Below are positions 34,368 through 48,200 of a stretch of DNA of 49,022 nt, in pieces. Source of the stretch: Opitutaceae bacterium. Lineage in GTDB: Bacteria > Verrucomicrobiota > Verrucomicrobiia > Opitutales > Opitutaceae. The notes under the pieces were generated by a model, which was given only the letters and a program-made list of their open reading frames with translations, searched no databases and was not told where the DNA came from. The translations under genes and the position numbers were made by a program. The DNA is taken from positions 1 through 49,022 of the forward strand of contig JANJTQ010000290.1 of NCBI GenBank assembly GCA_024711005.1, written 5' to 3'. The first letter of the stretch is position 1. Each line of letters opens with the position of its first letter.

Positions 34368-35093
34368 TCAGCCACTCCGCTTCGTGAGTTCGCGCAACCG
34401 CCGCACATGCAGCTCTGGCTCCAGCACATCGTAATGACTCGGGATCACCCCGCTCAAATCCATCGCAGCCACCTGCCTCAGGCTGGCGCGCACGCCGTCC
34501 TGCTCACGATTCAACACATGCGGCGGCAGATGCACCGACCACCGATAACTCGCAAAGACATCTCCGCTCAGAAGCCAGCCCGTGCGCTCGCAGAAAAACC
34601 CGCAATGCCCCGGCGTGTGCCCCGGCAGATGCACCACGCGCAACCCGCCCCACCACGGCAGCCGCTGTCCATCGCCCAACTCGTCGGTGACCTCGGGAGG
34701 ACTGAACCGCAGCGCAAATCTCCCCACGCTTTCCAACAGACCACAGCCACGCGCCCAGCCCCGATACTGCACGCGTCCGGCGACGTGTTCTCGGTCCGCC
34801 GGATGAACCCACACCGTCACGTCCGTTTCTCTCTGAATCCGACTCGCCCCGCCCGTGTGGTCCAAATGCCCATGCGTGAGCAAAATCGCCGTCATCTCAC
34901 GTGGCGATCGGCCGATCTCCCTCAGCAAGCGCCAAAGGTCATCCGCGACGCGGACCAACCCGGTATCCACCAAAATCATACTGTCGTCATCGACCAGCAG
35001 ATGCGCCGAGACCAGCGCTCCGCCAAGCCGGTATATCCGCGCGCTTCCCGCCTCCAGATGTTGAACGTCCTCACCCATTGTCGTGCGGGTCAC
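34368..35093 (-). CDS. Metallo-beta-lactamase-fold hydrolase
   Basis: A 241-residue zinc hydrolase with the full metal site: THGHLDHTGG (HxHxDH), LPGHTPGH, SGDVFAS (bridging Asp) and PSHYD near the C-terminus. The family includes thioesterases, glyoxalase II and lipid phosphodiesterases; this one could cleave a thioester or lactone of the pathway product. It is the last gene of an eight-gene operon. Its GTG start overlaps the ligase stop (GTGA), so it is probably co-translated. Substrate unknown. Confidence 0.88.
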   Translation of the reverse strand: MTRTTMGEDVQHLEAGSARIYRLGGALVSAHLLVDDDSMILVDTGLVRVADDLWRLLREIGRSPREMTAILLTHGHLDHTGGASRIQRETDVTVWVHPADREHVAGRVQYRGWARGCGLLESVGRFALRFSPPEVTDELGDGQRLPWWGGLRVVHLPGHTPGHCGFFCERTGWLLSGDVFASYRWSVHLPPHVLNREQDGVRASLRQVAAMDLSGVIPSHYDVLEPELHVRRLRELTKRSG

Positions 35094-36652
35094 CCGCCGC
35101 CCAGCCGCCTCCGCAACTCCGGATAATCCACCTTCGCGTTGTGACGCTTGTCCACCGGCAGCGTCGCCATGAAGCGCACGTCATCCACCTGCGCCCACGC
35201 CACCGCCGCGGACAAGTCCGCCGCCAATCGCTCATCGCGCTCCGCCTCCACGACGAGCACGCGTTTGCCGTTTAGCGCCACCATCGCCGCGCGGCGCACC
35301 ATCGGAAACGTCATCGCCACGCACTCCACGCCAAAGGGATAAAGCACCCCGCGCACATCCTCGATCCGCGCCGCGCAGCGCCCCGCCAACCACAGCCGCC
35401 CTTGTCCGTCCAGCAACCCTGCGTCGCCTGTGCGGTGCCACACTTCGCCCGCCACGCGAAACTTCGTCTCTTCGTCGCCGATTCCGCCCAGATACCCCGG
35501 CAACACGTGGTCGCCCGCGACAACGATCTCGCCCGTCTCGCCCGCCTTCAGACACTCCGCTGCAAATTCCTCCGCGTTCAACGCGCCTCGCACCACGCCC
35601 CAGCGGTCGCGCACCACGCGCAGCTTCACCTCGTCCACCGGCACGCCCGCCAATAACCCGCGTCCGCCGCGCATCGCCGCCAGATCGTCCGCCCCGATCT
35701 CATGCGCGCCCACGTGCGCGATCGGCTCGGCCTCCGTCGATCCATATACCGCCACCACATCCGCCTTCGGAGCCAACGCCTGCAACGCCTCCAGCAACCG
35801 CGGAAACACCGGTGCCCCGCCCGTGTGCAGTTTTTTCAGTCCGTCCAACGTTGCCCCGCGCGCCCTCCCCTCCTCGATCAACCGCTCGAAAAACGCCGGG
35901 GACGCCGTGATGCGATTCACCCCGCGCCGCTCGATCTGCGTCCACACCCGTGCCGCATCCACCGCGCCCGGTTTTCGCAGATCCACATCCGGAATCACCG
36001 TCGTCACCCCGGCCGCGAGATTGGCCAACGTGAACACCGGCAACGTCGCCAGGTCCACGTCGCCCGGCTCCAGCGCAATGCTCGGCGCCAACGCTCGATA
36101 CTGTGCCAGCAAAAATCCCTGCGTGCGCACCGCGCCCTTTGGCACGCCCGTGCTGCCGCTCGTGAACGTCACCAGCGCCGCGTCCTCCGGTCGCGCATCA
36201 CTCATCGTCACGCGCTCCGCCGTCACGCCCGCCAGCCACCGCGTTGTCCCCGGCAGCCAGCCGCCCGTCGTCACCTTTAGCGGAATCGCCCGCAACGCCC
36301 GCGACCGCAGCCGCAGCAGATGCGCCTTCGGAATCGCCAGCAACGCGTCCGGCGTCCAACGCGCACAACACCGCTCCAAATGCTCGCGTCCCGCCGACGG
36401 ATCGAGAAACAACGCCACCGCCCCGATTCGGAAAAGCGCCAGCAACACCACATACAAGTCCGCCGACATCGGCACAAACACCAGCACCGCCTCGCCGCGT
36501 TTCAACCCGCGCGCCCGCCACCACGCCGCCGCCTTCGCGACTTCTTCATCGAGCTGCGCAAACGTCAACGTCCGCCCCGCAGCGTCATCGATCAACGCCA
36601 CCGTTTCCGGTCGCACCCGCGCCTGTTCCGAAAGTTTATCCCCGATGGTCAT
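35090..36652 (-). CDS. Acyl-AMP ligase, OleC-like AMP-binding enzyme
   Basis: A 520-residue member of the adenylate-forming superfamily, expected to activate a carboxylic acid as acyl-AMP. Motifs are TFTSGSTGVPKGAV (A3), VAVYGSTEAEPIA (A5, like OleC), WHRTGDAG (A7) and the C-terminal PVDKRHNAKVDYPELR with the Lys of A10. The order matches fatty acyl ligases such as OleC, which handle beta-hydroxy acids; the exact substrate is inferred only. The ATG at 36652 is chosen; a TTG at 36697 would read through a dispersed repeat. Seventh gene of the operon. Confidence 0.86.
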   Translation of the reverse strand: MTIGDKLSEQARVRPETVALIDDAAGRTLTFAQLDEEVAKAAAWWRARGLKRGEAVLVFVPMSADLYVVLLALFRIGAVALFLDPSAGREHLERCCARWTPDALLAIPKAHLLRLRSRALRAIPLKVTTGGWLPGTTRWLAGVTAERVTMSDARPEDAALVTFTSGSTGVPKGAVRTQGFLLAQYRALAPSIALEPGDVDLATLPVFTLANLAAGVTTVIPDVDLRKPGAVDAARVWTQIERRGVNRITASPAFFERLIEEGRARGATLDGLKKLHTGGAPVFPRLLEALQALAPKADVVAVYGSTEAEPIAHVGAHEIGADDLAAMRGGRGLLAGVPVDEVKLRVVRDRWGVVRGALNAEEFAAECLKAGETGEIVVAGDHVLPGYLGGIGDEETKFRVAGEVWHRTGDAGLLDGQGRLWLAGRCAARIEDVRGVLYPFGVECVAMTFPMVRRAAMVALNGKRVLVVEAERDERLAADLSAAVAWAQVDDVRFMATLPVDKRHNAKVDYPELRRRLGGG

Positions 36653-36710
36653 ACGCTTGGTCCGACTTTCGTGTCTTTTTGTGTGTTTCGTGGGCAAAAC
36701 CCTTCCTTGA
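36653..36710. repeat. Intergenic repeat between GNAT and ligase genes
   Basis: The 58-base gap contains CGTGTCTTTTTGTGTGTTTC followed by GTGGGC on the plus strand; on the minus strand it reads CACGAAACACACAAAAAG and ACACGAAAG. Similar strings are familiar between genes in related genomes, and this is the only junction of the operon without overlap. Confidence 0.45.
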
Positions 36711-37625
36711 TCACGCCGTCAGTCGCTTCGAAAACAACGTATACCTCCGGATCGTCTTCGCATAATGCGCGCTCAGGTTCCGCGACTTGTTCGTCTCATG
36801 CATCAGCGCGTGGATCGCCCGCGTGAAACCCAGCTCCCGCGCCGCCGCGTGCGCCTCCGCCAGCAGCCACGCTCCGAGTCCGGCATGCTGTCGCCCGGGC
36901 AGCACCGCGAGCGTCTTCACGATCACCGTCGTCACCGGCAGCCCGCGCTGCGCTTGCGCGTAATCCGGCACCGCAAACACATACCCGACCGGCTGCCCCG
37001 CTCGCTCGGCCAGCAACACCAGCTCCGGCCTCACCTTATCTCGTATCGCCCGATATTGCGCCAAAAACGCCTCCCGCGGCAGCGGCGTATAAAGGTAATT
37101 CGCCTGAAACGAGACCACCGATACCTCGTAAATCCGCTCCAGTTCCTCCTCGAAGCGCGCCGGATCGATCGGTCGCACCCTCACGCCCGCCATCGCCATG
37201 CGCGTCGCCACCGCATCCACCCGCGGATCACGCGCCGCCAGATCGTCCGTCGCCGAGGAATAATATTCCGCCAGCGGACCAAACCCCGCCGCCCGCCACC
37301 AACCCGGCCACTCCGGCGGATTCGTCGGCTCCAGCAAAAACGGTGGCTCGTCACTCGCATCCGTCACCAATCGGTAACTACGCCACGTGTTCCCGTTCAT
37401 CGGCCCCACCGCCAATGTACAACCGCGCGCCTTCAACTCATCGCATGACCGTACCAACAGCTTCGCCGCGTCCTCCGCCGCATCGGGTGATGCCGAAAAC
37501 CCGCCGATCACTCCGAGTCGTTCGCCTTCCATCGGCGGCACGTGCGTCCACCACAGTGACGCTTCCGCGCCGCCTTCTTGGAGTCGGAGATCTTCACCCA
37601 GGTCCGCTTTCGTGGAGTTGCTCAT
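36711..37625 (-). CDS. GNAT family acyltransferase
   Basis: A 304-residue protein with an N-terminal extra domain (LWWTHVPPMEGERLGVIGGF, then GPMNGNTWRSYRLV) and a C-terminal GNAT core: ELVLLAERAGQPVGYVFAVP, then VIVKTLAVLPGRQHAGLGAW, which carries the acetyl-CoA-binding R/QxxGxG/A signature (GRQHAGLG), and helices ending ARELGFTRAIHALMH. It would transfer an acyl group to an amine or hydroxyl of the pathway intermediate. The ATG overlaps the kinase-like gene stop (ATGA). Specific substrate unknown. Confidence 0.85.
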   Translation of the reverse strand: MSNSTKADLGEDLRLQEGGAEASLWWTHVPPMEGERLGVIGGFSASPDAAEDAAKLLVRSCDELKARGCTLAVGPMNGNTWRSYRLVTDASDEPPFLLEPTNPPEWPGWWRAAGFGPLAEYYSSATDDLAARDPRVDAVATRMAMAGVRVRPIDPARFEEELERIYEVSVVSFQANYLYTPLPREAFLAQYRAIRDKVRPELVLLAERAGQPVGYVFAVPDYAQAQRGLPVTTVIVKTLAVLPGRQHAGLGAWLLAEAHAAARELGFTRAIHALMHETNKSRNLSAHYAKTIRRYTLFSKRLTA

Positions 37626-38944
37626 AATAAAAAAATCATCCCGCCGGCGACCGAGGCTACGAACGCCGTCGCCCCCTGTTTCCACCAGCGGGCGGTCAGG
37701 TCATCGGGCAGTTGCAGATTCCGTTCAAACGCCACGAATCCCGCCGTTGCCACCGCGACGCACGCCAGCCCCGCCGTCATTGCCACGACCGAAACCATGC
37801 GCCCGCGATCCAGCAGTGCGAACGCCGCGCCTTGCAAAACCACCGCCTGCGCCACACCGGCCATCCACCACGCCACGCGTGACCAACCGGGACGCCCTTG
37901 AGAATACCGCACCGTTGCAATCATCGCCTGATGCGCCGCAACCCCGAGGGTAAACCACCACAGCCAAGGCTGTTCGCCCGGCGCGAACGCTTGAGCCACC
38001 GTCCACACCAGTCCGACCGATCCCACGCAAATCACCGCCACCAGGTTGTGACGCGGAATCCCATTCGGTCCCGCCGGCATCAGGCGCACGTAGCTCGCCA
38101 AAAGCACCACCGGCGCGACCAACCACGGCCACCCGCCCACCGCCCAGAAAAAATACAGCGTCAGCGCCCCGCCCAACCGCGCGCAATCATCGACCACCCC
38201 CCGCCGCCGCCAGATCCAAGCCGCCACCGTGATGGCAACCAACACCACGAATCGCACGCCCACCGCCGAAAGCGGCAGCCCCAAATAAATGCTGATCTGC
38301 GCAAACGCCGCCAGCGGCAGAAACACGTTGTCCAACCCCCGCCACGAAATCGCCTCCACAATCATTCCAAACAAACCGATCACCGCCCCGATCAACAGGC
38401 TTGCACGCCAGTCATGGCCAGCGAGCAACAGCGGCCCCGCCACGCACAATAGACCGACCGCTCCCACCGCCAGCGAACCCTCAAAACTCTTCCGTCCTTC
38501 CAGCGTATCATAAAAACGCCGGCCCCACCGCTTGCCCACCAACGCTCCCGCCGCGTCCGCAAACGTGAGCAACGCCACCGGCACGCCAAACGTCAGCGCG
38601 TCGCCCCGCGCCAGCGTGAACACCACCGCCACGCCCAGCGGAAAATACATTTCTCCCAGCGACGTGCGCTTCACGTCGTGCAACACTCCACCAATCCCGC
38701 GCATCAACACCGGCACCGCCCGCAGCGCTCCGAGCACCACCACCGCAAGTCCCGCTAGCGCCCACACCGGCCACGCCTCCGTAAACAGCCACGGAAACAT
38801 CAGGCAAATCATGCCCATGCCCACATGCACCGCCTTGCGCGCCGCCTCCGGGCCGAACATCCCGCCCTCCTGCGCCACCTTCACACCCGCGAGCAGCCCA
38901 CCGAGCGCCCCCAGCACGATCGCGATTGCCGCCAGCGGATTCAC
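37622..38944 (-). CDS. SEC59/DGK1/VTE5-like CTP-dependent polyprenol/phytol kinase family membrane protein
   Basis: A 440-residue polytopic membrane protein. The N-terminal half has AARKAVHVGMGMICLMFPWL, TSLGEMYFPLGVAVVF, TFADAAGALVGKRWGRRFYD and EGRKSFEGSLA, hallmarks of the dolichol/phytol kinase and phosphatidate cytidylyltransferase family, which phosphorylate a lipid alcohol with CTP. The C-terminal half (from about residue 220) has another six or so membrane segments without a known signature, making it about twice the usual length. The GTG start at 38944 overlaps the BtaA-like stop and has GGAGG four bases before it. In this operon it may phosphorylate an isoprenoid alcohol. Confidence 0.82.
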   Translation of the reverse strand: MNPLAAIAIVLGALGGLLAGVKVAQEGGMFGPEAARKAVHVGMGMICLMFPWLFTEAWPVWALAGLAVVVLGALRAVPVLMRGIGGVLHDVKRTSLGEMYFPLGVAVVFTLARGDALTFGVPVALLTFADAAGALVGKRWGRRFYDTLEGRKSFEGSLAVGAVGLLCVAGPLLLAGHDWRASLLIGAVIGLFGMIVEAISWRGLDNVFLPLAAFAQISIYLGLPLSAVGVRFVVLVAITVAAWIWRRRGVVDDCARLGGALTLYFFWAVGGWPWLVAPVVLLASYVRLMPAGPNGIPRHNLVAVICVGSVGLVWTVAQAFAPGEQPWLWWFTLGVAAHQAMIATVRYSQGRPGWSRVAWWMAGVAQAVVLQGAAFALLDRGRMVSVVAMTAGLACVAVATAGFVAFERNLQLPDDLTARWWKQGATAFVASVAGGMIFLL

Positions 38945-40083
38945 AGCACCTCCTCCACGACAAAGGCGCTGTAGAAAAACGCCTTGTCCTGCGCGAAGAG
39001 CGGCCGTGCGAGGTCCTCGCGCGAACGCAGCCGTTCCGCCAGCGATTCCGGCCGCCGCCGCGGCGCCAGCATGTTCCAATACGCCAGACGCCCGCCCGGT
39101 GCGCTCGCCTGCGCCAACGACGCCAGAATCGCCGCCGTGTTCTCCTCGGACATGTATTCAAAAATATCCGACAAATTGAACTTCAATACCCGCTTCGACG
39201 CGCCCGCCGCCGTCTCGCGTTCCAAAAACGCCTCCAGCGTGAGTTCGTGCCATTCCAGCCGGTCGAGCCGTGACCGGATCTTCTCAAAGTTCTCTTCGCG
39301 CAACGCCCAAGGCAGCGCCTCGCCATGGATGCCGGTCAAAATCCAGTGCAGATACGGATTCTCCGCCGGATTCAGCGCCACCAGCGCATGTCGCGTCCGC
39401 TCCAAAATCCGGTCCGCCACCGAGCCCTTCACGTATTTGAAAAACGCCGGATCGCGTCCCAGCCGTCCCATCATGAACCGCGAGAAGAACACTTTGAACA
39501 GCAGCCGCCACCGCCAGTTATTCCAGCACTCCTCATAAAACCGCTCCCGCTCGGACAACGAGCCACCACGCAACAGTGCCTCGACGGTCGTTCGTCCGTG
39601 CACCAGCGGCAGCACGCGCGTCCGAAACAACCGAAAGTAGTTCTCAAACTTGCCCGCTGCGCCAGTGCCGCCCGTCACCGACTCCGGCTGCCCGTCCCAA
39701 AACGCCCGTACCGCGGACGATAACCGCCCGCGACACCGCGCATAAAGAGCCGCCCGCTCCGCCACCGCGCCCGGACGCGATCCCATGAGCACCAACAACT
39801 CCGCGTGGCTCAGTTCGCGATAAGCCGCGACCCGAAGTTCCAAGCAGGCCAGTTGCGAAGGGTTTAAATCCAACGCAACCACCCGCTCCGCCCCCGCCCC
39901 AAGCAGCGCGAGCGCGTTATCCCCCGCCGACGAAATCGACACGACCGTATCCGTAGGTTGGATATCCAGCGCTTCGACCAGAATATCCGCGTCCTCCCAC
40001 ACCTGCGCATAACGAATCCGCGAAAAATCCGCCCGCGTCGCCGCCTCCGTGGTCAGGGGCTGCCTATCCGAATTAGTGCCCAT
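38941..40083 (-). CDS. BtaA-like (DUF3419) S-adenosylmethionine 3-amino-3-carboxypropyltransferase
   Basis: A 380-residue DUF3419 protein. BtaA moves the 3-amino-3-carboxypropyl group from SAM onto diacylglycerol to start betaine-lipid (DGTS) synthesis. The N-terminal part has RYAQVWEDADILVEAL, VVSISSAGDNALALLGAG and the acidic strand VVALDLNPSQLACLELR (SAM site), all typical. The C-terminal half has FNLSDIFEYMSEENTA and RLAYWNML. No BtaB methyltransferase follows, so the product may be an unmethylated homoserine ether or a different acceptor may be used. Its ATG overlaps the dikinase stop by one base (TAATG). Confidence 0.87.
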   Translation of the reverse strand: MGTNSDRQPLTTEAATRADFSRIRYAQVWEDADILVEALDIQPTDTVVSISSAGDNALALLGAGAERVVALDLNPSQLACLELRVAAYRELSHAELLVLMGSRPGAVAERAALYARCRGRLSSAVRAFWDGQPESVTGGTGAAGKFENYFRLFRTRVLPLVHGRTTVEALLRGGSLSERERFYEECWNNWRWRLLFKVFFSRFMMGRLGRDPAFFKYVKGSVADRILERTRHALVALNPAENPYLHWILTGIHGEALPWALREENFEKIRSRLDRLEWHELTLEAFLERETAAGASKRVLKFNLSDIFEYMSEENTAAILASLAQASAPGGRLAYWNMLAPRRRPESLAERLRSREDLARPLFAQDKAFFYSAFVVEEVL

Positions 40084-42680
40084 TAGTGTTCATTAGTGGT
40101 TAAAATCTCCGTCTTCCGCACCACGCCCGTCGCACCGTCCATCTCCAGCCATTCGCCCGTCTTCACCCATGCCGTCACCCCGCCGATCGACACGATCGCC
40201 GGAATGCCCATCTCGCGCGCCACGATGGCCGAGTGCGACAGCAGACTCCCGTGCTCCACGAGCAACCCCGCCGCCGCCGGAAACAACATGATCCAGCCCG
40301 GGTCGGTGCGCGGCGCCACGAGGATTTCGCCCGACTCGATCACCGCGTTGCGCGGATCCGTGATCACGCGAGCCCGCGCCCGCACCACGCCCGGACAGCA
40401 TCCGATTCCCTTCAAGACGTCGCCTTCCGGCACCACCGCCGCCCGTGTCGCCTTGAATACATTGCCCAAATGCACGGCTCCACGCGTTTCAAAGCGGTTC
40501 GCGGGCTCGGGCTTTTCTCTGAACCCTGCGAATTCTGTTTTCCGCAATGTCACCAATCCGGCGAGGTCGGTCATCGCCGCCGTTCCTTCGATAAAACCGA
40601 GCGTCTCTTCCGCCGTGAGATAAAACACATCGCGCGGCTCGGCCAGACGTCCCGCCGCGTGCAGGCGCTTCCCCAACTCGACAAAAACACGCCGCACCCG
40701 CCCAAACAACCGCGTGCGCTCAAACCGCAGATTCTCCCGGTCGCACACCCGCGCTCGCGTGTGCTTGAGCACCCAGCCAAACACCGCGCGCCGCAACCGA
40801 CGCCCCGCAAGCGTCTCCGCCACCCGCGCCTCCGCTTGCGCGCGCAGCCTCGTATCCGTGCCACTTTCCGCAGCAAGGCCGGTCGCGCCGAAGCGTCGCG
40901 CAAACTGTCCCACCGAACGCAACAGCGTCAGCGGTTCGTCATGGAGCGTGAGGCTCTCCAACTTCAATTCCTCCAAACAGCGGTCGCCAAATTTCTCCAG
41001 GTACTCTGCATAAAGCGCGCGGAATTTCGGCGCCGTCTCCAGCCAGCGTTCGATGGCCGGCAGCGTACCCTCGCAAAGAATCGTGATCGCATCCGCGTCA
41101 TCCGCGACCAAGACGGCCATTTCTCGCACCCGTTTCGCCGGTTCCGCACTGATCATCCCGCCTTCCGCGCAGAGCAGGTCGTTTTGCAGCGTACCGTCGG
41201 TGTCGCCGCACCACTTCGCCGTGAGCTTGCGCGCCACGCCGTAGAAGATCATCGCAAAAAAGTCGTTCACCAGCGGTGCGTCCCACTTGAGCAACAGCTG
41301 TCGTTCCAGATCACGGAAATGTGCCGCCAGCTCATCCGGCCGCATCGTCTCCAAGGGAGGTTCACACGGACGCAGCGCTTCATTCAGCCGTTCGTAGAAT
41401 CGCGCAATTTGACCCGGAAGAGTAAAATGATTTTTCACCAGCCCCAGACACGCTCCCGCCAGGGCAAAACCATCACGCACCTTCGCCCAGCGACCGACCG
41501 GCGTGAGCTTCGCGAGCACCTCCTCCGGGAGTCCTTCTTTGACGCCCATCATCTGCTCCATAAATCCGCGGTTCACCGAAAAGCCGGGTAACAGCGCAAG
41601 CAGCCGATACCAACTGATGAGGTTGTAGTAGATGCGCCCCTCAATGAGTCCGAGCATCCGCGGAAACAAATCGCGATTGTCCTCAATCCGCGCCGTGCCC
41701 ACGCCCATCATCCGTGCAAACTCTCGGTAAACCGCCTCGTAGATTCCCCGCGCAAAGGAAAATGTAAGCGGAGTCGTCACCCCGCTATAACTCTCCGCGA
41801 TGTTGGCGTTGTCCCACAGGTTCAACTCGCCATCCGGATCGGCCAGCCCCGCGAGCGAGGTGATCGGACGCGACTGGAGAAGCCACAGCTTTCCGTTCGC
41901 CCGCGCCCACTCGATGTCTTGCGGACGCCCAAAATGTTTCTCGGTCGCCCGCGCCAGCGCAGCCACCTCGGATGCCTGCGCGTTGGTCAGCGTCGCCGTC
42001 GTCGCCTGCTCCGCCGACACCGGCCGCGAAATCACGCCTTCTCCCTCACCCGGCGCCGCGCGGTGAGCGGCGTGTTTATCGACCAATGCACGCGTCACCA
42101 CATTTCCACTACGGTCGATCGTGAACATGTCCGCGTCCGCCTCACCCGAGACGAGCGCCGATCCCAAACCGAACACCGCCGACACGACCGCGTGACCGCG
42201 TCGCCCACTCACCGGATCGGCGCTAAACGCCACCCCGGCTGTCTCCGCGTCGACCATGCGCTGCACGAGCACGGCGGGGGGTTGCGGCTCACCGGCCAGC
42301 CCCCGCTCACGACGATACGCGAGGATGCGCTCGCTGAATCCCGACCGCCACACCGCGGCGACTTTTTCGGCGATCCGCTCCGGGGGCACGAAGAGAAAGC
42401 TGTCGAGTTGTCCCGCAAACGAATGCTCCGCCCCGTCCTCGTCGAGCGCCGACGAACGCACAGCAAAAAAGGCGGCCCCCCGCGCGACTTCGCCTGCCGT
42501 GGTGACAATCTCCGCCGCGAGTTCCGCCGGCACGCCATCACACGCATACGCGGCCGGCGTCACCACGAACCACTCCGGAATCGGCAGCTTGGCCGATGCA
42601 AGCCGTGCGAGTGCCCCCGCCTTTCCGCCAAGCGGCGCGTCGGGAGGAAATTCGTCGGTGTGGCGGATAATTGTCGTCAT
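40083..42680 (-). CDS. Dikinase of rifampicin-phosphotransferase layout (PEP-synthase-like)
   Basis: An 865-residue protein of the PEP-utilising/dikinase superfamily. Residues 1-275 form the ATP-grasp part (LGGKAGALARL, FFAVRSSALDEDGAEHSFAG, then QRMVDAETAGVAFSADPVSG and LLQSRPITS). The middle (about 285-740) has a helical region starting NIAESYSGVTTPLTF, like the drug-binding domain of rifampicin phosphotransferase (RPH). The phospho-His domain is at the very C-terminus, GSLLSHSAIVAREMGIP with His816. Real PEP synthases end in a PEP/pyruvate barrel, absent here; the length of about 865 also fits RPH. It probably phosphorylates a hydroxyl substrate from ATP (giving AMP and Pi). The ATG at 42680 overlaps the ubiA stop. 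Confidence 0.88.
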   Translation of the reverse strand: MTTIIRHTDEFPPDAPLGGKAGALARLASAKLPIPEWFVVTPAAYACDGVPAELAAEIVTTAGEVARGAAFFAVRSSALDEDGAEHSFAGQLDSFLFVPPERIAEKVAAVWRSGFSERILAYRRERGLAGEPQPPAVLVQRMVDAETAGVAFSADPVSGRRGHAVVSAVFGLGSALVSGEADADMFTIDRSGNVVTRALVDKHAAHRAAPGEGEGVISRPVSAEQATTATLTNAQASEVAALARATEKHFGRPQDIEWARANGKLWLLQSRPITSLAGLADPDGELNLWDNANIAESYSGVTTPLTFSFARGIYEAVYREFARMMGVGTARIEDNRDLFPRMLGLIEGRIYYNLISWYRLLALLPGFSVNRGFMEQMMGVKEGLPEEVLAKLTPVGRWAKVRDGFALAGACLGLVKNHFTLPGQIARFYERLNEALRPCEPPLETMRPDELAAHFRDLERQLLLKWDAPLVNDFFAMIFYGVARKLTAKWCGDTDGTLQNDLLCAEGGMISAEPAKRVREMAVLVADDADAITILCEGTLPAIERWLETAPKFRALYAEYLEKFGDRCLEELKLESLTLHDEPLTLLRSVGQFARRFGATGLAAESGTDTRLRAQAEARVAETLAGRRLRRAVFGWVLKHTRARVCDRENLRFERTRLFGRVRRVFVELGKRLHAAGRLAEPRDVFYLTAEETLGFIEGTAAMTDLAGLVTLRKTEFAGFREKPEPANRFETRGAVHLGNVFKATRAAVVPEGDVLKGIGCCPGVVRARARVITDPRNAVIESGEILVAPRTDPGWIMLFPAAAGLLVEHGSLLSHSAIVAREMGIPAIVSIGGVTAWVKTGEWLEMDGATGVVRKTEILTTNEH

Positions 42681-43612
42681 TGTAAAGTCATCCGGCACGC
42701 CACCACCAACGGCACCGCGCCAAGCATCAGATAAAGCGCCAGCGTCCAGATTCCCGACGCCGCCTCGATGCCTTTCGCAAGACGTCCGTTCTGCGTTCTT
42801 AAAAAGGAAAGTCCGAGAATGGCTGCACCAATCCATGTCGTGCCAAGCACCCACGCCACTTCTTGTTCAAATCCAATACGCCCCGCCGCGACGATCGCAC
42901 AGGCAAAGGTCGCCGCGATCGCCGTCAACCAAGCCGCCACCGCGACTCGCCGCCCCCAAATAAATGAATACGTCTCCACGCCCGCCTCTTCCTGCTCGGG
43001 CGAACGAATCTTGCGGCCGAGCTCGATCACCACGCCGTTGCAAAAACTCGCCGCGAGAAACCAAAACAATCCCGCCGGCATCCCGCCACCCGCCGGCACC
43101 CAATCGCATCCCGTCGCAAACCAGTCCACCAATGGCATGATCGCCATGTGACTGAAGAGATACACCACCGGCCGCGCCTTGAGCCACGACCGGGCAAAGA
43201 ATTCTTTGCTCATCAGCCCGAAGTAAACCCACGTCACCGCGAGCAATCCCAACAAGCGCAAATCCAGGAACCCCGCCCGGCCACCCAGCCAGCCTGCCAA
43301 CGCCAGCTGTCCCATCGCGACCGCCACTCCGATCCACGCCAACTCTTTCAATTTCACCAGCCCGCGCGGGACCGGTCGATACGGACGATAACGCGCGTCT
43401 TCCTCCGCATCTTTGAATTCGTCAGCAATCCGTAGCAGCAGAAATGATCCGAACGATACGAGGAATGCCACGAGGTAGGACTCCGCCCGTGGATTGACGT
43501 CCTGCCTCAGCAACGCCGAGTAGCTCACCGCCGATGCGCTGAACGCCGCGATCAACGGGCCGTGCGCCACCAGCGGAAACCGCTCCTTCTGATAAATCCA
43601 CCAGCGGTTCAT
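42677..43612 (-). CDS. UbiA family prenyltransferase
   Basis: A 311-residue integral membrane protein with about eight hydrophobic helices. The first Asp-rich motif is LRIADEFKDAEEDARYRP (DxxxD, with acidic residues that bind Mg-diphosphate), followed by YRPVPRGLV. The second region is VIELGRKIRSPEQEEAGVET, where the usual DxxxD is replaced by E and EE-rich residues. UbiA enzymes transfer an isoprenyl group onto an aromatic or phospholipid acceptor. The acceptor here is unknown and the altered second motif is notable. The ATG overlaps the HMG-CoA reductase stop (ATGA), so the two are probably translated together. Confidence 0.87.
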   Translation of the reverse strand: MNRWWIYQKERFPLVAHGPLIAAFSASAVSYSALLRQDVNPRAESYLVAFLVSFGSFLLLRIADEFKDAEEDARYRPYRPVPRGLVKLKELAWIGVAVAMGQLALAGWLGGRAGFLDLRLLGLLAVTWVYFGLMSKEFFARSWLKARPVVYLFSHMAIMPLVDWFATGCDWVPAGGGMPAGLFWFLAASFCNGVVIELGRKIRSPEQEEAGVETYSFIWGRRVAVAAWLTAIAATFACAIVAAGRIGFEQEVAWVLGTTWIGAAILGLSFLRTQNGRLAKGIEAASGIWTLALYLMLGAVPLVVACRMTLQ

Positions 43613-44934
43613 ACGCGCGTCGGGCGTTCTTCGACTCCGGTGTCCCCGCCTGTCGCCTGATTCGGCTTCCGCCCTCTCGCCAGCCGTTCATGCGCACTGG
43701 CAAACTGCCCTGCGCTCAACGCCGCGATGATCGACAGCTCCCCGGCCAGCGCCAGCGCCGCACACACTTCGGCGAACGCCCGCGCCTTGCCCGCGCCCGC
43801 GAGCCCCAGCACATCCAAGCACGCCCGCTGACTCGGCAGCCCCGTGCCTCCGCCCACCGTGCCGACGATCAAATTGGGCAGCGTCACCGACGCATACAGC
43901 TCGCCTTCGTCACCGACCTCGAAACGCGTCACGCCGACCGCCGCCTCCGACACACACGCCGCGTCCTGACCACATGCGATGAACAACGCCGCCAGCCCGT
44001 TCGCATAGTGTCCCTGCACGCCGATGGTGCCGCTGAGCACGCCGCCGAGCGCCGACATGCGCCAGTAATCCACCATCTTCTCCGCCGTCGTGTGCAGATG
44101 ACGCTCGACCACCTTGCGCGGCAACCGCACCTCGGCGGCGACTTTCTTGCCGCGCACCGACAGGAACGACTGCGCGCTCGCCTTCTTGTCGCCCGACAAA
44201 TTGCCCTCAACGAAGAAATACGCCGGTTTCACCGGACACTCCGCCGCGATGAAGTCGCACACCGCCTCGGTCGCGATGGTCACCATGTTCTGCCCCGCCG
44301 CGTCTCCGGTCGTGAACTCCAGCAACACATACACATGGTTTCCCTCGACGGTGAAGCGCACATCCTTGAGCTTGCCGAAGCGCGTGGTCGCCTCCGCCTT
44401 CTCGCGAACCTTTTCGGTGTTCGCCACGCACCACTGCACGAAATTCCCCGCTTCCAACAGCGAGTGAAACGCGAAGGCTGGCGCACGTCCCACGCCCTCG
44501 CTCAACACCAGCGTCGTGCAGCCACCGGCCAACGTAATCACGCTTGCGCCGCGATGATAACTCGCCACCAACGCCGCCTCGGTCGTTGCCAGAGGCACGT
44601 AATAATCACCCTGCGCCGCGATGCCGTTGATTCGTAGTGGACCAGCCAAGCCAACGGGAATCTTCACTGTGCCGATAAAGTTCTCGATGTTTCGGGCAAA
44701 CAGCTCGTGTCGCTCCAACGTCAGCGCATCGGCCACCTCGTCCCTGACTCCGGTCGCCTGGGGCAGGAGCGCCCAGCGCTTATCGATCACACCAGGATCG
44801 GTCTGGGTCGCACCAGGCACACGGGGCGCGGAGGGATGCATCTTTGCGCTCAGCCGGAAGGCGATGTCCGCAGGCTCCAAGCCGGCCGTGATATTCAGAA
44901 GATGCTTTCTGGCTCCATCGTGAGTGGCAGACAT
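43609..44934 (-). CDS. HMG-CoA reductase, class I type
   Basis: A 441-residue enzyme that reduces HMG-CoA to mevalonate with NADPH. Catalytic residues are all present: Glu119 in PLATTEAALVAS, Lys250 in SGDKKASAQSF, Asp324 in ACGQDAA and His415 in SAGQFASAHERL. NADPH-binding TTGDAAGQNMVTI and VGTVGGGTGLPSQ, and ENFIGTVKIPVGLAGPL in place of the class I ENxIG motif, also match. No membrane domain is present, as in archaeal enzymes. An ATG at 44934 is preferred over a TTG at 44955. First gene of the eight-gene operon. Most bacteria of this type use the MEP route, so a mevalonate enzyme here is unusual; it may work on HMG-CoA or a related thioester. Confidence 0.93.
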   Translation of the reverse strand: MSATHDGARKHLLNITAGLEPADIAFRLSAKMHPSAPRVPGATQTDPGVIDKRWALLPQATGVRDEVADALTLERHELFARNIENFIGTVKIPVGLAGPLRINGIAAQGDYYVPLATTEAALVASYHRGASVITLAGGCTTLVLSEGVGRAPAFAFHSLLEAGNFVQWCVANTEKVREKAEATTRFGKLKDVRFTVEGNHVYVLLEFTTGDAAGQNMVTIATEAVCDFIAAECPVKPAYFFVEGNLSGDKKASAQSFLSVRGKKVAAEVRLPRKVVERHLHTTAEKMVDYWRMSALGGVLSGTIGVQGHYANGLAALFIACGQDAACVSEAAVGVTRFEVGDEGELYASVTLPNLIVGTVGGGTGLPSQRACLDVLGLAGAGKARAFAEVCAALALAGELSIIAALSAGQFASAHERLARGRKPNQATGGDTGVEERPTRV

Positions 44935-45253
44935 AGGGTTAGGCGACAAAGACAATCAGTGGCGTCTCCACTTACAAGCCTCGGCTGAGCCATGTATGTG
45001 CCCTCGTCTGCTACGTTCGGCCTCATCGCTTCGGCCGAGATCTCAGGCCGGTGGCGCCGCGCTCTTTTTTAATCAGGAACGCGTCCTCGGCCGCCGGCAT
45101 TCCGGTTCCGACGTCCCGTCTGTTATTAACGCCGCTTAAGCCCCGCAATATCCGCATACACTACGCCAACTCGTGCGCAGCAGGGCTACGCGTTTTTTGG
45201 CATCTTTGAAACCGCTCCGACCGGCCAAAACCGCCCGTTCGCCGCCTTGTCCC
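44935..45253. promoter_or_regulatory. 319-base divergent promoter region between HMGR operon and nifJ
   Basis: Must hold the promoters of both the HMG-CoA reductase operon (leftwards) and nifJ (rightwards). CGGCCT (45018-45023) and AGGCCG (45045-45050) form the base of an imperfect hairpin with an inner TCGGCCGA palindrome; a run of six T's follows at 45065-45070, so a rightward attenuator or terminator upstream of nifJ is conceivable. No operator or riboswitch that I recognise. Confidence 0.4.
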
Positions 45254-48200
45254 ATGAAATCATCCGGATCCGGCTCCGCCTCCTCCAAACCCCGTTTTAT
45301 AACTTGCGACGCCAATGAGGCCGTCGCCTCCGTAGCCTACCGGCTCAACGAGTTCATCGCCATCTACCCCATCACGCCTTCATCCGCGATGGCCGAGTCT
45401 TGCGACGAATGGGCGGCCGCCGGCAAAAAAAATATCTGGGGCCAGGTCCCCCGCGTCACCCAGCTCCAATCCGAGGCCGGTGTCGCCGGTGCCGTTCATG
45501 GCGGGCTCCTCGGCGGCGCCCTCACCACCACGTTCACCGCATCGCAGGGCCTCCTGCTGATGATCCCCAATCTCTACAAGATCGCCGGCGAACTCCTCCC
45601 TCTCACCCTTCACGTCTCCGCCCGCGCCATCGCCGCGCAGGGCCTTTCCATTTTCGGCGACCATTCCGACGTCATGGCCTGCCGCGCCACCGGCTGCGCC
45701 CTCCTCTGCTCCAACAACGGCCAGGAGGCCCAGGACCTCGCCCTCGTCGCCCACGCCGCCAGCTACCGCGCCCGCATCCCGTTCATCCATTTCTTCGACG
45801 GCTTCCGCACTTCCCACGAGGTTTCCAAGATCGCCACGCTTTCCGACGACGACATCCGCGCCGTCATCAGCGAACAGGATATCGCCGACTTCCGCGCCCG
45901 CGCCCTCTCCCCCGACCGTCCCGCCATCCGCGGCACCGCCCAGAATCCCGACGTCTATTTCCAAGGCCGTGAATCGGTCAACCGGTTCTACGATCAGCTT
46001 CCCGCCATCGTCCAGGGCGAGATGGACCGCCTCGCCGAGGTCACCGGCCGTCAGTATCGTCTCTACGAATACCACGGACACCCCCAGGCCGACCGCGTGA
46101 TCGTCGCAATGGGCAGCGCCATCGAAACCATCGCCGAAACCGTCGACTGGCTCGTCGCCAAGGGCGAAAAAGTCGGCGTCCTCGCCGTCCGGCTCTTCCT
46201 CCCGTTCCACGTCAAATCCTTCCTCGCGGCGATCCCCCCGACCGTCAAAGCCATCGCCGTCCTCGACCGCACCAAGGAGCCCGGTTCCCTCGGCGAACCG
46301 CTTTATCTCAACGTCGTCGCCGCCCTCGCCCAAGGCCTTTCCCCGCTCGCCAACTCCCCCCGCGTCGTCGGCGGCCGCTACGGACTCGGCTCCAAGGAAT
46401 TCACTCCCGGCATGGTCCGCGCCGCCTTCGACAACCTTGCCCGCTGGGAACCGCTTTCCAAGTTCACCCTCGGCATCCTCGACGATGTCACCGGCAGCTC
46501 CCTCGGCTACGACGAGGCGTTCGATCTCGAAGCCTCCGATGTGCGCCGTTGCGTGTTCGTCGGCCTCGGCGCCGACGGCACCGTGGGCGCCAACAAGAAC
46601 TCGATCAAAATCATCGGCGAACAGACCGACAACTTCGCCCAAGGGTACTTCGTCTACGATTCCAAGAAATCCGGCTCCGTCACCACCTCCCACCTGCGTT
46701 TCGGCCCGCGTCCGATCAAGGCCCCTTACCTCATCCGCCACGCCGACTTTGTCGCGTGCAGCCAATACAACTTTGTCGGCCGCCAGAAGATCCTCGATTA
46801 CGCCGCCGCCGGCGCGACCGTACTGCTCAACTCTCCGCATTCCGCCGCGGACACTTGGGCAAAGCTCCCTCGTGAATGGCAGGAAACGCTCATCGCGAAA
46901 AAGCTCCGTCTCTTCGTGATCGACGCCACCCATGTCGCCCAGGCCGCCGGCATGGGCCGCCGCACCAACACCGTTCTGCAGACCTGCTTCTTCGCCCTTT
47001 CCGGCGTGCTTCCGCAGGCCGAGGCCATCAAGCAGATCAAGAAGGCGATCGAGAAAACCTACAGCCGCAAGGGTGACAAGGTCGTCCAGATGAACTACGC
47101 CGCCGTGGACGCCGCCCTCGCCGGCCTGCAGGAGGTTGCGCTTCCCGCGAATGTCGACGCCACCGCGGTCGCATCGATCAAGCCGAGTTATCCGGGCGCC
47201 TCCGAATTCGTCCAAAAGGTCACCGTGCGTCTGCTCGCCGACGAAGGCGACAACCTCCCCGTGAGCGCCATGCCCTCCGACGGCTGCTGGCCCACCGGCA
47301 CCACCCGTTTCGAGAAGCGCAACATCGCCCTCGAAATCCCCTCCTGGGACTCCGCGCTCTGTATCCAATGTAACAAGTGCGCGATGGTCTGCCCGCACGC
47401 CGCCATCCGTCCCAAGTTCTACCCCGACTCCGCCCTCGCCGGCGCCCCCGAGGGTTTCGCCTCCACCGCCTTCCGCTCCAAGGAACATCCAGGCTATCGC
47501 TACACCCTCCAGGTCGCACCGGAGGATTGCACCGGTTGCTCGCTCTGCGTGCAGGTCTGCCCGGCCAAGGACAAAACCAACCCGCGCCACAAGGCCATCG
47601 ACATGGTCTCGCAGCCCGAGCGCCTTGTCGCCGAACGTGCCAACTGGGATTTCTTCCTCACCCTCCCCGAGGCCGATCGCTCCAAGGTCGACACCACGAG
47701 CGTCAAGGGCACGCAGTTCCTGCAACCGCTCATGGAGTTCTCCGGCGCCTGCGCCGGCTGCGGCGAAACGCCCTACCTGAAGCTCCTCACCCAGCTCTTC
47801 GGCGACCGGCTCATCATGGCCAACGCCACCGGCTGCTCCTCGATCTACGGCGGCAATCTCCCGACCACTCCGTACTGCCAGGACAAGAACGGACGCGGTC
47901 CCGCCTGGGCCAACTCGCTCTTCGAGGACAATGCCGAGTTCGGCCTGGGCCTGCGCCTCGCCGCCAATCAGCGTCTCGAGACCGCCCGCACGCTCCTGCA
48001 ACTCCTCGCCCCCGAGGTCGGCACCGAGCTCGCGACGGCCATCCTTGAGGCCCCGCAAAGCTGCGAAGCCGACTACGCCGCCCAGCGCGAACGCGTCATC
48101 GCACTGCGCGCCGCGTTGAAGGGTAACGTCACTCCGGTCGGTCTTCGCCTCTCCGCCCTCGCCGACGACTTCGTCAAAAAGACCGTCTGGACCATCGGTG

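Follow-up and report, generated by a model that had tools for sequence, protein, structure and literature searches.

A Conserved Seven-Gene Cassette with an FcrA-Type Reductase Signature and a Putative Role in Long-Chain Lipid Synthesis

Results and Discussion

Organization of the locus in Opitutaceae

The window analyzed in this study is a 49,022-nucleotide stretch of contig JANJTQ010000290.1 from an Opitutaceae bacterium (assembly GCA_024711005.1). Inspection of its open reading frames, start codons and junctions showed eight collinear genes that are all located on the minus strand (Table 1). Successive genes overlap by 4, 4, 1, 4 and 4 bases, followed by a gap of 58 bases at the GNAT/AMP-ligase junction and a last overlap of 4 bases, so that six of the seven junctions overlap by 1 or 4 bases exactly as an earlier sequence-only reading had described. 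A scan for sigma-70 promoters returned 0 sites against 1.8 expected, and a terminator scan returned 7 against 11.8 expected.

Table 1. Genes of the operon, listed in the direction of transcription
Gene product	Position	Strand	Basis
HMGR-like protein, best read as FcrA-type fatty acyl-CoA reductase	43609..44934	-	PF00368, residues
UbiA-superfamily membrane transferase, altered second motif	42677..43612	-	model, fold match, motifs
RPH/PEP-synthase-like phosphotransferase or ligase (ATP-grasp and swivelling His domain)	40083..42680	-	family, structure, His
BtaA-like (DUF3419), putative SAM-dependent aminocarboxypropyl transferase	38941..40083	-	PF11899
SEC59/VTE5/CdsA-like putative CTP-dependent lipid-alcohol kinase, extra C-terminal membrane half	37622..38944	-	motif columns
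GNAT N-acyltransferase, N-terminal extension	36711..37625	-	PF00583
Acyl-AMP ligase, PRK09274/OleC type	35090..36652	-	NCBIfam, RHNAK lysine
MBL-fold hydrolase, 4-base overlap with ligase gene, outside conserved cassette	34368..35093	-	PF00753

Distribution and co-inheritance of a seven-gene cassette

The first seven genes, from the HMGR-like gene to the acyl-AMP ligase gene, constitute a conserved unit beyond what chance would produce, because they recur collinearly across phyla. All seven occur together at 46 of the 87 distinct loci listed (window counted), always on one strand and in three gene orders. As these loci derive from the best 80 of 489 confirmed relatives, the real distribution is at least this wide. 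One duplicate was removed to give the 87 distinct loci, as L032 and L109 lie on one contig; the row counts of 57, 56, 69 and 68 used below may contain both. Loci with the complete set span at least eight groups that range from Verrucomicrobiota to Gammaproteobacteria, Acidobacteria and Cyanobacteria. The earlier proposal that the genes form one unit, for which a lack of co-occurrence in relatives had been named as the refutation, is therefore sustained, and the same set is found well outside of Verrucomicrobiota. Many of the loci are from MAGs, as judged by their titles, and all seven genes are also present in cultured Methylomonas sp. SURF-1, Desulfobulbus rhabdoformis DSM 8777 and cyanobacterium FACHB-471.

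The cassette is nevertheless rare within the groups that were sampled. Within the family of the window, the cassette UbiA (above 400 bits) and HMGR are found in the same 3 of 61 genomes, while the cassette HMGR is present in 9 of 240 Verrucomicrobiota genomes and a high-scoring HMGR in 3 of 194 cyanobacteria. Since the set stays together across phyla though rare in these groups, it very likely represents a genuine pathway whose product is useful. A search of the open-access literature (PubMed Central only) found no description of this seven-gene set.

Two additional observations address co-inheritance. Gene-by-gene distance matrices, built only from loci where all seven genes are long enough (40 rows, one a duplicate), correlate with r values of 0.61-0.87; for example, HMGR and BtaA correlate at 0.74, whereas permutations reached no more than 0.35. 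Presence and absence were then tallied at “full” loci, defined as those with at least 6 kb before and at least 4.5 kb after BtaA (51 loci), a definition that leaves out 37 of 88 BtaA loci as well as plasmid locus L120 and L034, which is without BtaA. Across the 50 distinct full loci HMGR and VTE5 are both present at 39, both absent at 8, and found singly at only 3 (VTE5 only at 2, HMGR only at 1), with a Fisher p of 7e-7 in a test that ignores relatedness. HMGR and VTE5 thus appear to be gained and lost together, as consecutive steps would predict. At two of the eight loci with neither gene (L079 and L114) BtaA stands alone, the set being simply split.

Some loci keep the core genes without HMGR and VTE5. 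A PigE-like gene adjoins the core at two such full loci and at a truncated third, and possibly provides an alternative route for acyl-thioester reduction, while at L101 no replacement was seen. This variant cassette carries the PigE-like gene along with a second RPH-like gene. Some hosts, among them Calothrix sp. NIES-4105, combine a core of UbiA, RPH, BtaA, GNAT and ligase genes with a radical-SAM set in place of HMGR and VTE5. Genes judged by eye to encode a P450 and a sulfotransferase adjoin some loci.

An eighth gene had been included in the unit by the sequence-only reading, but this extent does not hold. The MBL-fold protein is a clear Lactamase_B member (PF00753, E 1.1e-26); however, its gene occurs at just 3 of the 51 full loci, window counted (E 1e-5), and the copy at L080 is on the opposite strand. 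Three near relatives whose contigs extend beyond the ligase gene (L042, L043 and L044) do not have it either (E 0.01), a fourth that was searched, L040, ending before the ligase. We therefore rejected MBL as a cassette member. Clustering the open reading frames of 80 loci revealed no other conserved eighth gene, the remaining families occurring in 8 loci or fewer; large antisense clusters were taken for putative shadow ORFs of cassette genes.

The HMGR homolog has the signature of a fatty acyl-CoA reductase

The first gene product is a strong match to HMG-CoA_red (PF00368, E 4.5e-120), with the profile matching class-I structures at E values from 1.2e-119 to 5.2e-84. The four catalytic residues (E/K/D/H) are kept in 57 of 57 cassette rows, but residues that bind HMG are lost. 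In the window protein, human S684 corresponds to Glu, K735 to Met and L862 to Phe (F411, invariant in the alignment). Among cassette rows longer than 380 aa the S684 position is Glu in 57/57, the K735 position is M, V, I, A or L in 57/57 (mostly Met or Val), and the L862 position is Phe in 56/56, a count that excludes the window, which was scored separately and also has Phe. Lower-scoring Verrucomicrobiota HMGRs have S, K and L at the three positions in 21 of 21 cases; an initial comparison used 11 plus-strand sequences and a later one all 21 with loci, which are about half of the lower-scoring matches, the rest having received no locus. The lysine printed as residue 795 in the FcrA paper is taken by us to be residue 735.

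These substitutions match the signature of FcrA, a relative of class-I HMGR that was shown to reduce fatty acyl-CoA instead of HMG-CoA (PMC11948995). The signature residues given for FcrA are at the S684 position, the lysine that forms the salt bridge to HMG, and L862; the lysine position is said to generally hold small residues, and N. pharaonis has Trp at the L862 position (PMC11948995). Both groups of proteins are class-I HMGR relatives with the same catalytic residues, Glu for Ser684, a lost Lys and an aromatic residue at Leu862, and both occur in genomes that either are without HMG-CoA synthase or have a second HMGR. On these grounds the cassette “HMGR” looks like an FcrA-type enzyme that would convert fatty acyl-CoA to a fatty alcohol. 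There are also differences, as the cassette reductase resides within a seven-gene set, the window protein has no match to an extra N-terminal domain, Met or Val instead of a small residue mostly occupies the Lys position, and cassette genomes are usually without a match to wax-ester synthase. The Met at K735 and the Phe in place of Trp at L862 suggest that the cassette enzymes could be a sub-branch of FcrA with a different acyl substrate.

Mevalonate and wax-ester synthesis are poor explanations for the reductase

The sequence-only reading had proposed an isoprenoid product, in which HMGR would supply mevalonate for a prenylated lipid. The protein is a class-I HMGR relative whose catalytic residues are intact, which agrees with this proposal, as does the UbiA-superfamily enzyme of the cassette, but Ser684 and Lys735, which bind HMG, are present in 0 of 57 rows. 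Pathway partners are also missing. The genome that contains the window (96.6% complete) has IspH, no match to HMG-CoA synthase, and a best mevalonate kinase match of 68.2 bits against a cut-off of 163. Of 31 other cassette genomes, 30 gave no HMG-CoA synthase match, the one with a synthase being the genome of L048. Additionally, HMG-CoA synthase is present in five of the nine Verrucomicrobiota genomes with a cassette HMGR, and exactly these five carry a second putative HMGR elsewhere. Based on the lost HMG-binding residues and these missing partners we rejected the mevalonate reading, which we regard as very improbable; the broader suggestion of synthesis outside of the normal isoprenoid pathway is upheld.

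FcrA is reported to serve wax-ester synthesis in Halobacteriales (PMC11948995), and a similar use of the cassette reductase for wax esters or neutral lipids would follow this precedent. However, a wax-ester synthase scores above cut-off in only 1 of 40 cassette genomes, with a 19-bit match in one more, and the remaining cassette genes would have no explanation. Wax esters were consequently rejected as well, and we hold such a product to be highly unlikely.

Two divergent integral-membrane-type proteins

Searched singly, neither the UbiA nor the VTE5-like protein of the window matched any Pfam model. At E up to 1, PF01040 is matched by 24 of the 25 UbiA rows in the alignment, the exception being the window row. 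The structural model of the window UbiA (pLDDT 95.7) aligns with a Z of 21.1 to solved UbiA 4od4 and of 18.9 to the archaeal DGGGP synthase 6m31. The cassette UbiA shares with this superfamily its fold and first Asp-rich motif (DxxxDxxxD in 69 of 69 rows), but not the first Asp of motif 2, where 64 of 69 rows have Arg and none has Asp, the motif position having been set by its spacing to a conserved Gly. The usual substrate of UbiA enzymes is an allylic diphosphate.

The family assignment of the VTE5-like protein is made at the level of motifs and is weaker than that of UbiA. Ten columns (R, K, H, D, G, K, E, G, D and N) are invariant in 68 rows. PF01148 is matched by 1 of 23 rows (best E 0.00054) and DUF92, weakly, by 8 of 23 (best E 0.0097). 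Residues 15-224, in the first half of the protein, align to the CDP-DAG synthase CdsA with a borderline Z of 7.6, unrelated rows being at 7.2 (VIA-align), and Foldseek returned no match to the fold at E 0.001. The C-terminal half has no family assignment.

The BtaA-like protein belongs to a distinct subfamily

The BtaA-like protein matches DUF3419 well (PF11899, E 1.1e-68), and among solved structures it has only a weak methyltransferase match (E 0.0065). It is 26% identical to a rhizobial homolog that is unannotated and not a proven BtaA, and 39 of 90 conserved columns are common to the two. Many conserved N-terminal residues are kept in the rhizobial protein, while most of the C-terminal FNLSDIFEY region is not. 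By sequence, the cassette protein is a distinct subfamily.

A betaine-type glycerolipid would fit the DUF3419 assignment, as this family has served as the marker for algal DGTS synthesis (PMC6642084). BtaA would in that case modify diacylglycerol or alkyl-acylglycerol, as it does when DGTS is made, and the methylation step would be encoded outside the cassette. The BtaA/BtaB pathway shares with the cassette a putative aminocarboxypropyl transferase of this kind, but no methyltransferase family that could supply a BtaB is among the eight genes, and the cassette instead links its transferase to a reductase, a kinase and UbiA. The low identity and altered C-terminal motif relative to the unannotated rhizobial homolog also argue against it, and HMGR, VTE5, UbiA and GNAT would be left unexplained. 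A betaine-like lipid had been suggested for this locus, but a strictly defined betaine lipid is thus improbable.

The RPH-like protein, GNAT and acyl-AMP ligase

The RPH-like protein contains PPDK_N and PEP-utilizers domains, and its catalytic-type His is present in 68 of 68 rows. Its best solved relative is 5fbs (E 9.5e-68), deposited as a phosphoenolpyruvate synthase and presumably the rifampin phosphotransferase. In NCBIfam it scores highest against a generic “phosphoenolpyruvate synthase” model, with 781 of 883 bits. Rifampin phosphotransferase, RedH and PigC share the ATP-grasp and swivelling His domain with the RPH-like protein, which nonetheless misses each of their equivalog cut-offs (RedH 337.8/1350, PigC 292.3/1300, rifampin phosphotransferase 307.8/999 bits).

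The order of these scores, with RedH above the rifamycin phosphotransferase model for the window protein, raises the prospect that the cassette makes a specialized metabolite instead of a membrane lipid. The RPH-like protein would then be an ATP-dependent ligase of the RedH/PigC type, joining two halves that the other enzymes supply, much as prodigiosin is assembled. The variant with a PigE-like and a second RPH-like gene is in line with this, as are the P450 and sulfotransferase genes beside some loci. However, the generic model scores well above RedH, the RedH and PigC scores are far beneath cut-off as is the PigE score of the variant's PigE-like gene, and the integral-membrane-type UbiA and VTE5 along with the FcrA-type reductase point to a lipid. 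We consider a specialized metabolite rather unlikely, though a better candidate than a betaine lipid.

GNAT matches PF00583 (E 1.8e-8). Two loci (L038 and L119) have a formyltransferase-like gene and no GNAT was found there, the L119 contig ending 1.3 kb after BtaA; five full loci (L045, L070, L071, L079 and L114) have neither gene nearby. The acyl-AMP ligase is an AMP-binding protein with the RHNAK-motif lysine in 57 of 57 rows, and its best NCBIfam match is PRK09274 followed by two OleC models, all under cut-off. It shares the PRK09274 group with the OleC beta-lactone synthetases, but scores 257.2/900 and 223.5/850 bits against the OleC equivalog cut-offs, and no OleA-, OleB- or OleD-type family is among the eight genes.

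A proposed pathway for a long-chain lipid

The analysis shows which genes make up the set, that they are conserved and inherited together, which signature residues they carry, and that mevalonate-pathway partners are absent. From these observations we propose that the seven genes encode a self-contained, horizontally spread pathway to a long-chain lipid not derived from mevalonate, with a rough probability of 0.6 for this reading with its steps as follows. The acyl-AMP ligase would activate a fatty acid (step 1), the FcrA-type “HMGR” would reduce acyl-CoA to a fatty alcohol (step 2), and the VTE5-like protein would phosphorylate the alcohol with CTP (step 3). The RPH-like enzyme may carry out a second, ATP-driven phosphoryl transfer (step 4), after which the UbiA-like membrane enzyme may transfer the activated chain to an acceptor (step 5). 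The BtaA-like enzyme would add a 3-amino-3-carboxypropyl group from SAM (step 6), and GNAT, or a formyltransferase elsewhere, would acylate the amine of that group (step 7). Each of these reactions is one that we infer, step 2 alone being based on a characterized relative; the sequence of steps 4-7 is a guess, as is the identity of the product. Several points count against the pathway: UbiA enzymes normally take an allylic diphosphate and this one has lost the first Asp of motif 2, the VTE5-like assignment is made at the level of motifs, the residues at K735 and L862 deviate from those described for FcrA, core genes persist at some loci that have neither HMGR nor VTE5, five full loci have neither GNAT nor the formyltransferase nearby, and one cassette genome does have HMG-CoA synthase.

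That the operon looks lipid-related agrees with the original proposal for this locus, and the product is probably an undescribed long-chain lipid that bears a SAM-derived aminocarboxypropyl group. More tentatively, it might be a new lipid class, found patchily in bacteria of at least eight groups, in which a fatty-alcohol chain is activated as an alkyl phosphate or diphosphate, coupled by UbiA, and then capped by a SAM-derived head group of the homoserine type that is N-acylated. The UbiA coupling might then resemble archaeal ether formation but with straight chains, a suggestion that we hold just as tentatively.

Conclusions

A bacterial protein annotated as class-I “HMGR” should not be equated with isoprenoid synthesis until its three pocket residues have been checked. 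FcrA-type enzymes likely have a role beyond wax esters, as was foreseen by their discoverers (PMC11948995). If the cassette does make a lipid, then this lipid would be detectable now in the cultured hosts that carry all seven genes. If the new lipid class is real, the mobile cassette would encode one more way of making ether or aminolipid membranes.

Organization of the operon and its gene families

All eight open reading frames of the sequence-only reading were verified at their positions in the window, as were their tight junctions. Reading along the operon, the first five junctions overlap by 4, 4, 1, 4 and 4 bases, the sixth leaves 58 bases between the genes, and at the seventh the genes again overlap by 4. 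Seven of the genes (HMGR-like, UbiA, RPH-like, BtaA-like, VTE5-like, GNAT and acyl-AMP ligase) constitute a conserved minus-strand cassette, with the eighth, an MBL-fold hydrolase gene, lying outside of it. A divergent neighbor begins ~240 bases from the operon start (Table).

The family assignments largely held. Pfam and NCBIfam models back HMG-CoA reductase, PPDK_N/PEP-utilizer, DUF3419 (BtaA-like), GNAT, AMP-binding and Lactamase_B, while UbiA is backed by its relatives (PF01040 is matched by 24 of 25 rows) and by its fold (Z 21.1, rmsd 3.1, 262 aligned against 4od4). Of 69 UbiA-like rows, 64 carry Arg in place of the first Asp of the second motif. The RPH-like protein has as its top NCBIfam model a generic "phosphoenolpyruvate synthase" (781 of 883 bits) and as its nearest solved chain 5fbs, deposited as phosphoenolpyruvate synthase, which we take to be rifampin phosphotransferase. 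The BtaA-like protein has 39 of 90 conserved columns in common with a rhizobial homolog encoded on a Sinorhizobium sp. RAC02 plasmid, which carries no annotation in that record and is not proven to be BtaA, and its C-terminal FNLSDIFEY region is mostly different from that homolog. The VTE5-like assignment is the least certain of the set: Pfam is nearly silent, and unrelated rows score nearly as high as its first half does against CDP-DAG synthase (Z 7.6, rmsd 6.0, 173 residues). The residues of its motif do not vary across 68 rows. Short copies, one of 260 aa at locus L119 and a second, shorter gene immediately upstream of HMGR at L116 (Table), suggest that the N-terminal half may be the catalytic unit.

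Distribution and co-inheritance of the cassette

An HMGR search of 240 Verrucomicrobiota genomes gave a match in 49, with a high-scoring group of nine that includes the window's genome (G000) and eight others from different families at 50-58% identity. HMGR, BtaA and VTE5 genes occur together in the fetched regions of seven of these eight; in the exception, G189, HMGR is solitary in the fetched stretch and the cassette UbiA is on a separate contig. When the BtaA alignment was run against a collection of bacterial and archaeal species, 80 of 489 confirmed relatives were listed, which makes the distribution a lower bound. Together with the window and the seven fetched Verrucomicrobiota regions these give 88 loci, or 87 distinct ones since one contig appears as both L032 and L109. 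The expected co-occurrence was borne out, as all seven genes are collinear and on a single strand at 46 of the 87 distinct loci listed (47 of 88 raw), in at least eight groups. The window's order is found at 34 of these (35 with the duplicate contig), GNAT and ligase are shifted to the front at 10, and a third order occurs at two.

The set also extends beyond Verrucomicrobiota, for example to Gammaproteobacteria, Cyanobacteria and Desulfobulbus. Hosts among the loci listed, labeled from record titles in which some MAG names are doubtful, additionally include Burkholderiales, Planctomycetota, Acidobacteriota, Rhodothermales/Bacteroidota, Trueperaceae and others. Among the named cultures, the complete set is carried by Desulfobulbus rhabdoformis DSM 8777 (L084), Methylomonas sp. 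SURF-1 (L059), Cyanobacteria bacterium FACHB-471 (L067) and Alkalilimnicola ehrlichii AK92 (L052). A complete circular plasmid of Roseinatronobacter sp. S2 (L120) carries genes annotated as UbiA, PEP/pyruvate-binding, DUF3419, two hypotheticals and AMP-binding in cassette order, a stretch matched by all seven queries (HMGR only partially). This location hints at mobility of the cassette, despite the plasmid being typed as non-mobilizable.

Of the 61 genomes covered from the window's family, G000, G497 and G501 alone contain cassette UbiA (>400 bits), and the same three alone contain cassette HMGR; five further genomes have UbiA matches of at most 26 bits, and the other searched member of the window's genus has neither gene. 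Cassette UbiA is present in all 12 genomes picked for a split or incomplete-looking cassette or as comparison. Over 40 rows, the seven proteins give distance matrices that correlate pairwise with r of 0.61 to 0.87, the value for HMGR versus BtaA being 0.74 against a maximum of 0.35 in 1000 permutations.

The HMGR-like protein is probably not a mevalonate enzyme

The HMGR-like protein is of class I, with 6hr7, presumably archaeal, as its nearest solved chain. The four catalytic residues are invariant in all 57 cassette rows (56 distinct, window included). Glu stands at the position of human Ser684 in 57 of 57; Lys735 is replaced by Met (41), Val (10), Ile (3), Ala (2) or Leu (1), and Leu862 by Phe in 56 of 56 and, as F411, in the window. 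Lower-scoring Verrucomicrobiota HMGRs that became loci have Ser, Lys and Leu at these positions (21 of 21). Cyanobacterial HMGR-like proteins at L125-L129 have Asp, Ala and Phe at the same three positions of the pocket, and look like another non-mevalonate subfamily.

We take the residue given as Lys795 in the description of FcrA, a fatty acyl-CoA reductase, to be the position numbered 735 here. That description presents FcrA as a class-I HMGR relative that makes fatty alcohol from long-chain acyl-CoA, leaves HMG-CoA unreduced, is insensitive to simvastatin and is changed at Ser684, Lys795 and Leu862, with roles beyond wax esters expected by its authors (PMC11948995). The cassette residues fit these three changes. 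Our Ser/Lys argument preceded knowledge of this description, and the Leu862 test followed it. The sequence-only reading had named an isoprenoid as one possible product; the loss of Ser684 and Lys735 in every row, together with no HMG-CoA synthase match in a search of G000, speaks against a supply of mevalonate by this protein, which is probably not a mevalonate enzyme.

Genome context agrees with a non-mevalonate HMGR. G000 has IspH of the MEP pathway, and its best mevalonate-kinase match reaches 68 bits versus a cut-off of 163. HMG-CoA synthase occurs in five of the nine Verrucomicrobiota genomes with cassette HMGR, and it is these five that contain a second HMGR elsewhere. IspH is found in three of the remaining four, while neither enzyme was found in G132 (~91% complete). 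Among 31 other cassette genomes searched, the synthase occurs only in G242, the genome of L048, where the cassette HMGR keeps the FcrA signature although the synthase is present. Wax-ester synthase exceeds its cut-off in one of 40 cassette genomes.

The putative reductase-kinase pair, its possible substitutes and other neighbors

Of the 50 distinct full loci (51 raw; at least 6 kb before and 4.5 kb after BtaA), 39 carry both HMGR and VTE5, eight carry neither and three carry only one of them (VTE5 two, HMGR one), an association with a Fisher p of 7e-7 that ignores the relatedness of the loci. Among the loci with neither, L079 and L114 have BtaA alone with UbiA elsewhere in the genome, and L101 has a five-gene core with no substitute seen at the locus. 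Three cyanobacterial loci (L076, L112, L115) have, in place of the pair, two genes for membrane proteins and one for a radical-SAM/SPASM protein upstream of UbiA; at L037 and L116 the radical-SAM/SPASM set stands alongside HMGR and VTE5. HMGR and VTE5 were likewise not found at L055, L056 and the truncated L087, which carry a second RPH-like gene and an aminotransferase of class III that also matches a KR-type reductase weakly and has PigE as best NCBIfam model (338 bits, under the cut-off of 850). PigE-type enzymes convert an acyl thioester to an amine, and therefore a different acyl-reducing function may take over where the alcohol-making pair is absent.

The formyltransferase-like gene at L038 and L119, where GNAT was not found (the L119 contig ends 1.3 kb after BtaA), suggests that GNAT acts on an amine; five other full loci with neither gene nearby count against this reading. 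By eye, a sulfotransferase adjoins the cassette at three full loci (L048, L049, L094), and a cytochrome P450 occurs at five (Table).

Table. Coordinates of genes accompanying the cassette
Feature	Locus	Position
Radical-SAM/SPASM gene, membrane protein, second small membrane protein	L115	3314-5931
Same	L076	
Same	L112	
Radical-SAM/SPASM gene, membrane protein	L116	1030-4254
Same	L037	5055-7354
PigE-like, second RPH-like and SnoaL-like genes before BtaA	L055	4658-9941
Same	L056	4662-9931
Same	L087	
Formyltransferase-like gene	L038	16574-17314
Same	L119	3732-4478
Cytochrome P450 and sulfotransferase (by eye)	L048	2453-4869
Same	L049, L094; L081 and L102 (P450 only)	
Second VTE5-like gene	L116	4262-5089
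Pyruvate:ferredoxin oxidoreductase (by eye)	window	45173-48883 (+)

A proposed pathway

The individual enzymes come from described families, and gene clusters for lipids have precedent; to our knowledge, neither this combination of seven families nor its product is known. Searches of open-access full text yielded no description of the set, which may be in print elsewhere. In the pathway that we propose, the acyl-AMP ligase would activate a fatty acid, the FcrA-type reductase would convert it to a fatty alcohol and the VTE5-like protein would yield an alkyl phosphate. The RPH-like protein would either transfer another phosphoryl group or act as a ligase, the UbiA-like protein would transfer the chain within the membrane, the BtaA-like protein would add an aminocarboxypropyl group from SAM, and GNAT would N-acylate. 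A characterized relative underlies the reductase step only, and we infer the others from family knowledge. Because of the Asp to Arg change, the UbiA-like protein may take a donor other than a regular prenyl diphosphate, and because of the divergent FNLSDIFEY region, the BtaA-like acceptor may be other than plain diacylglycerol.
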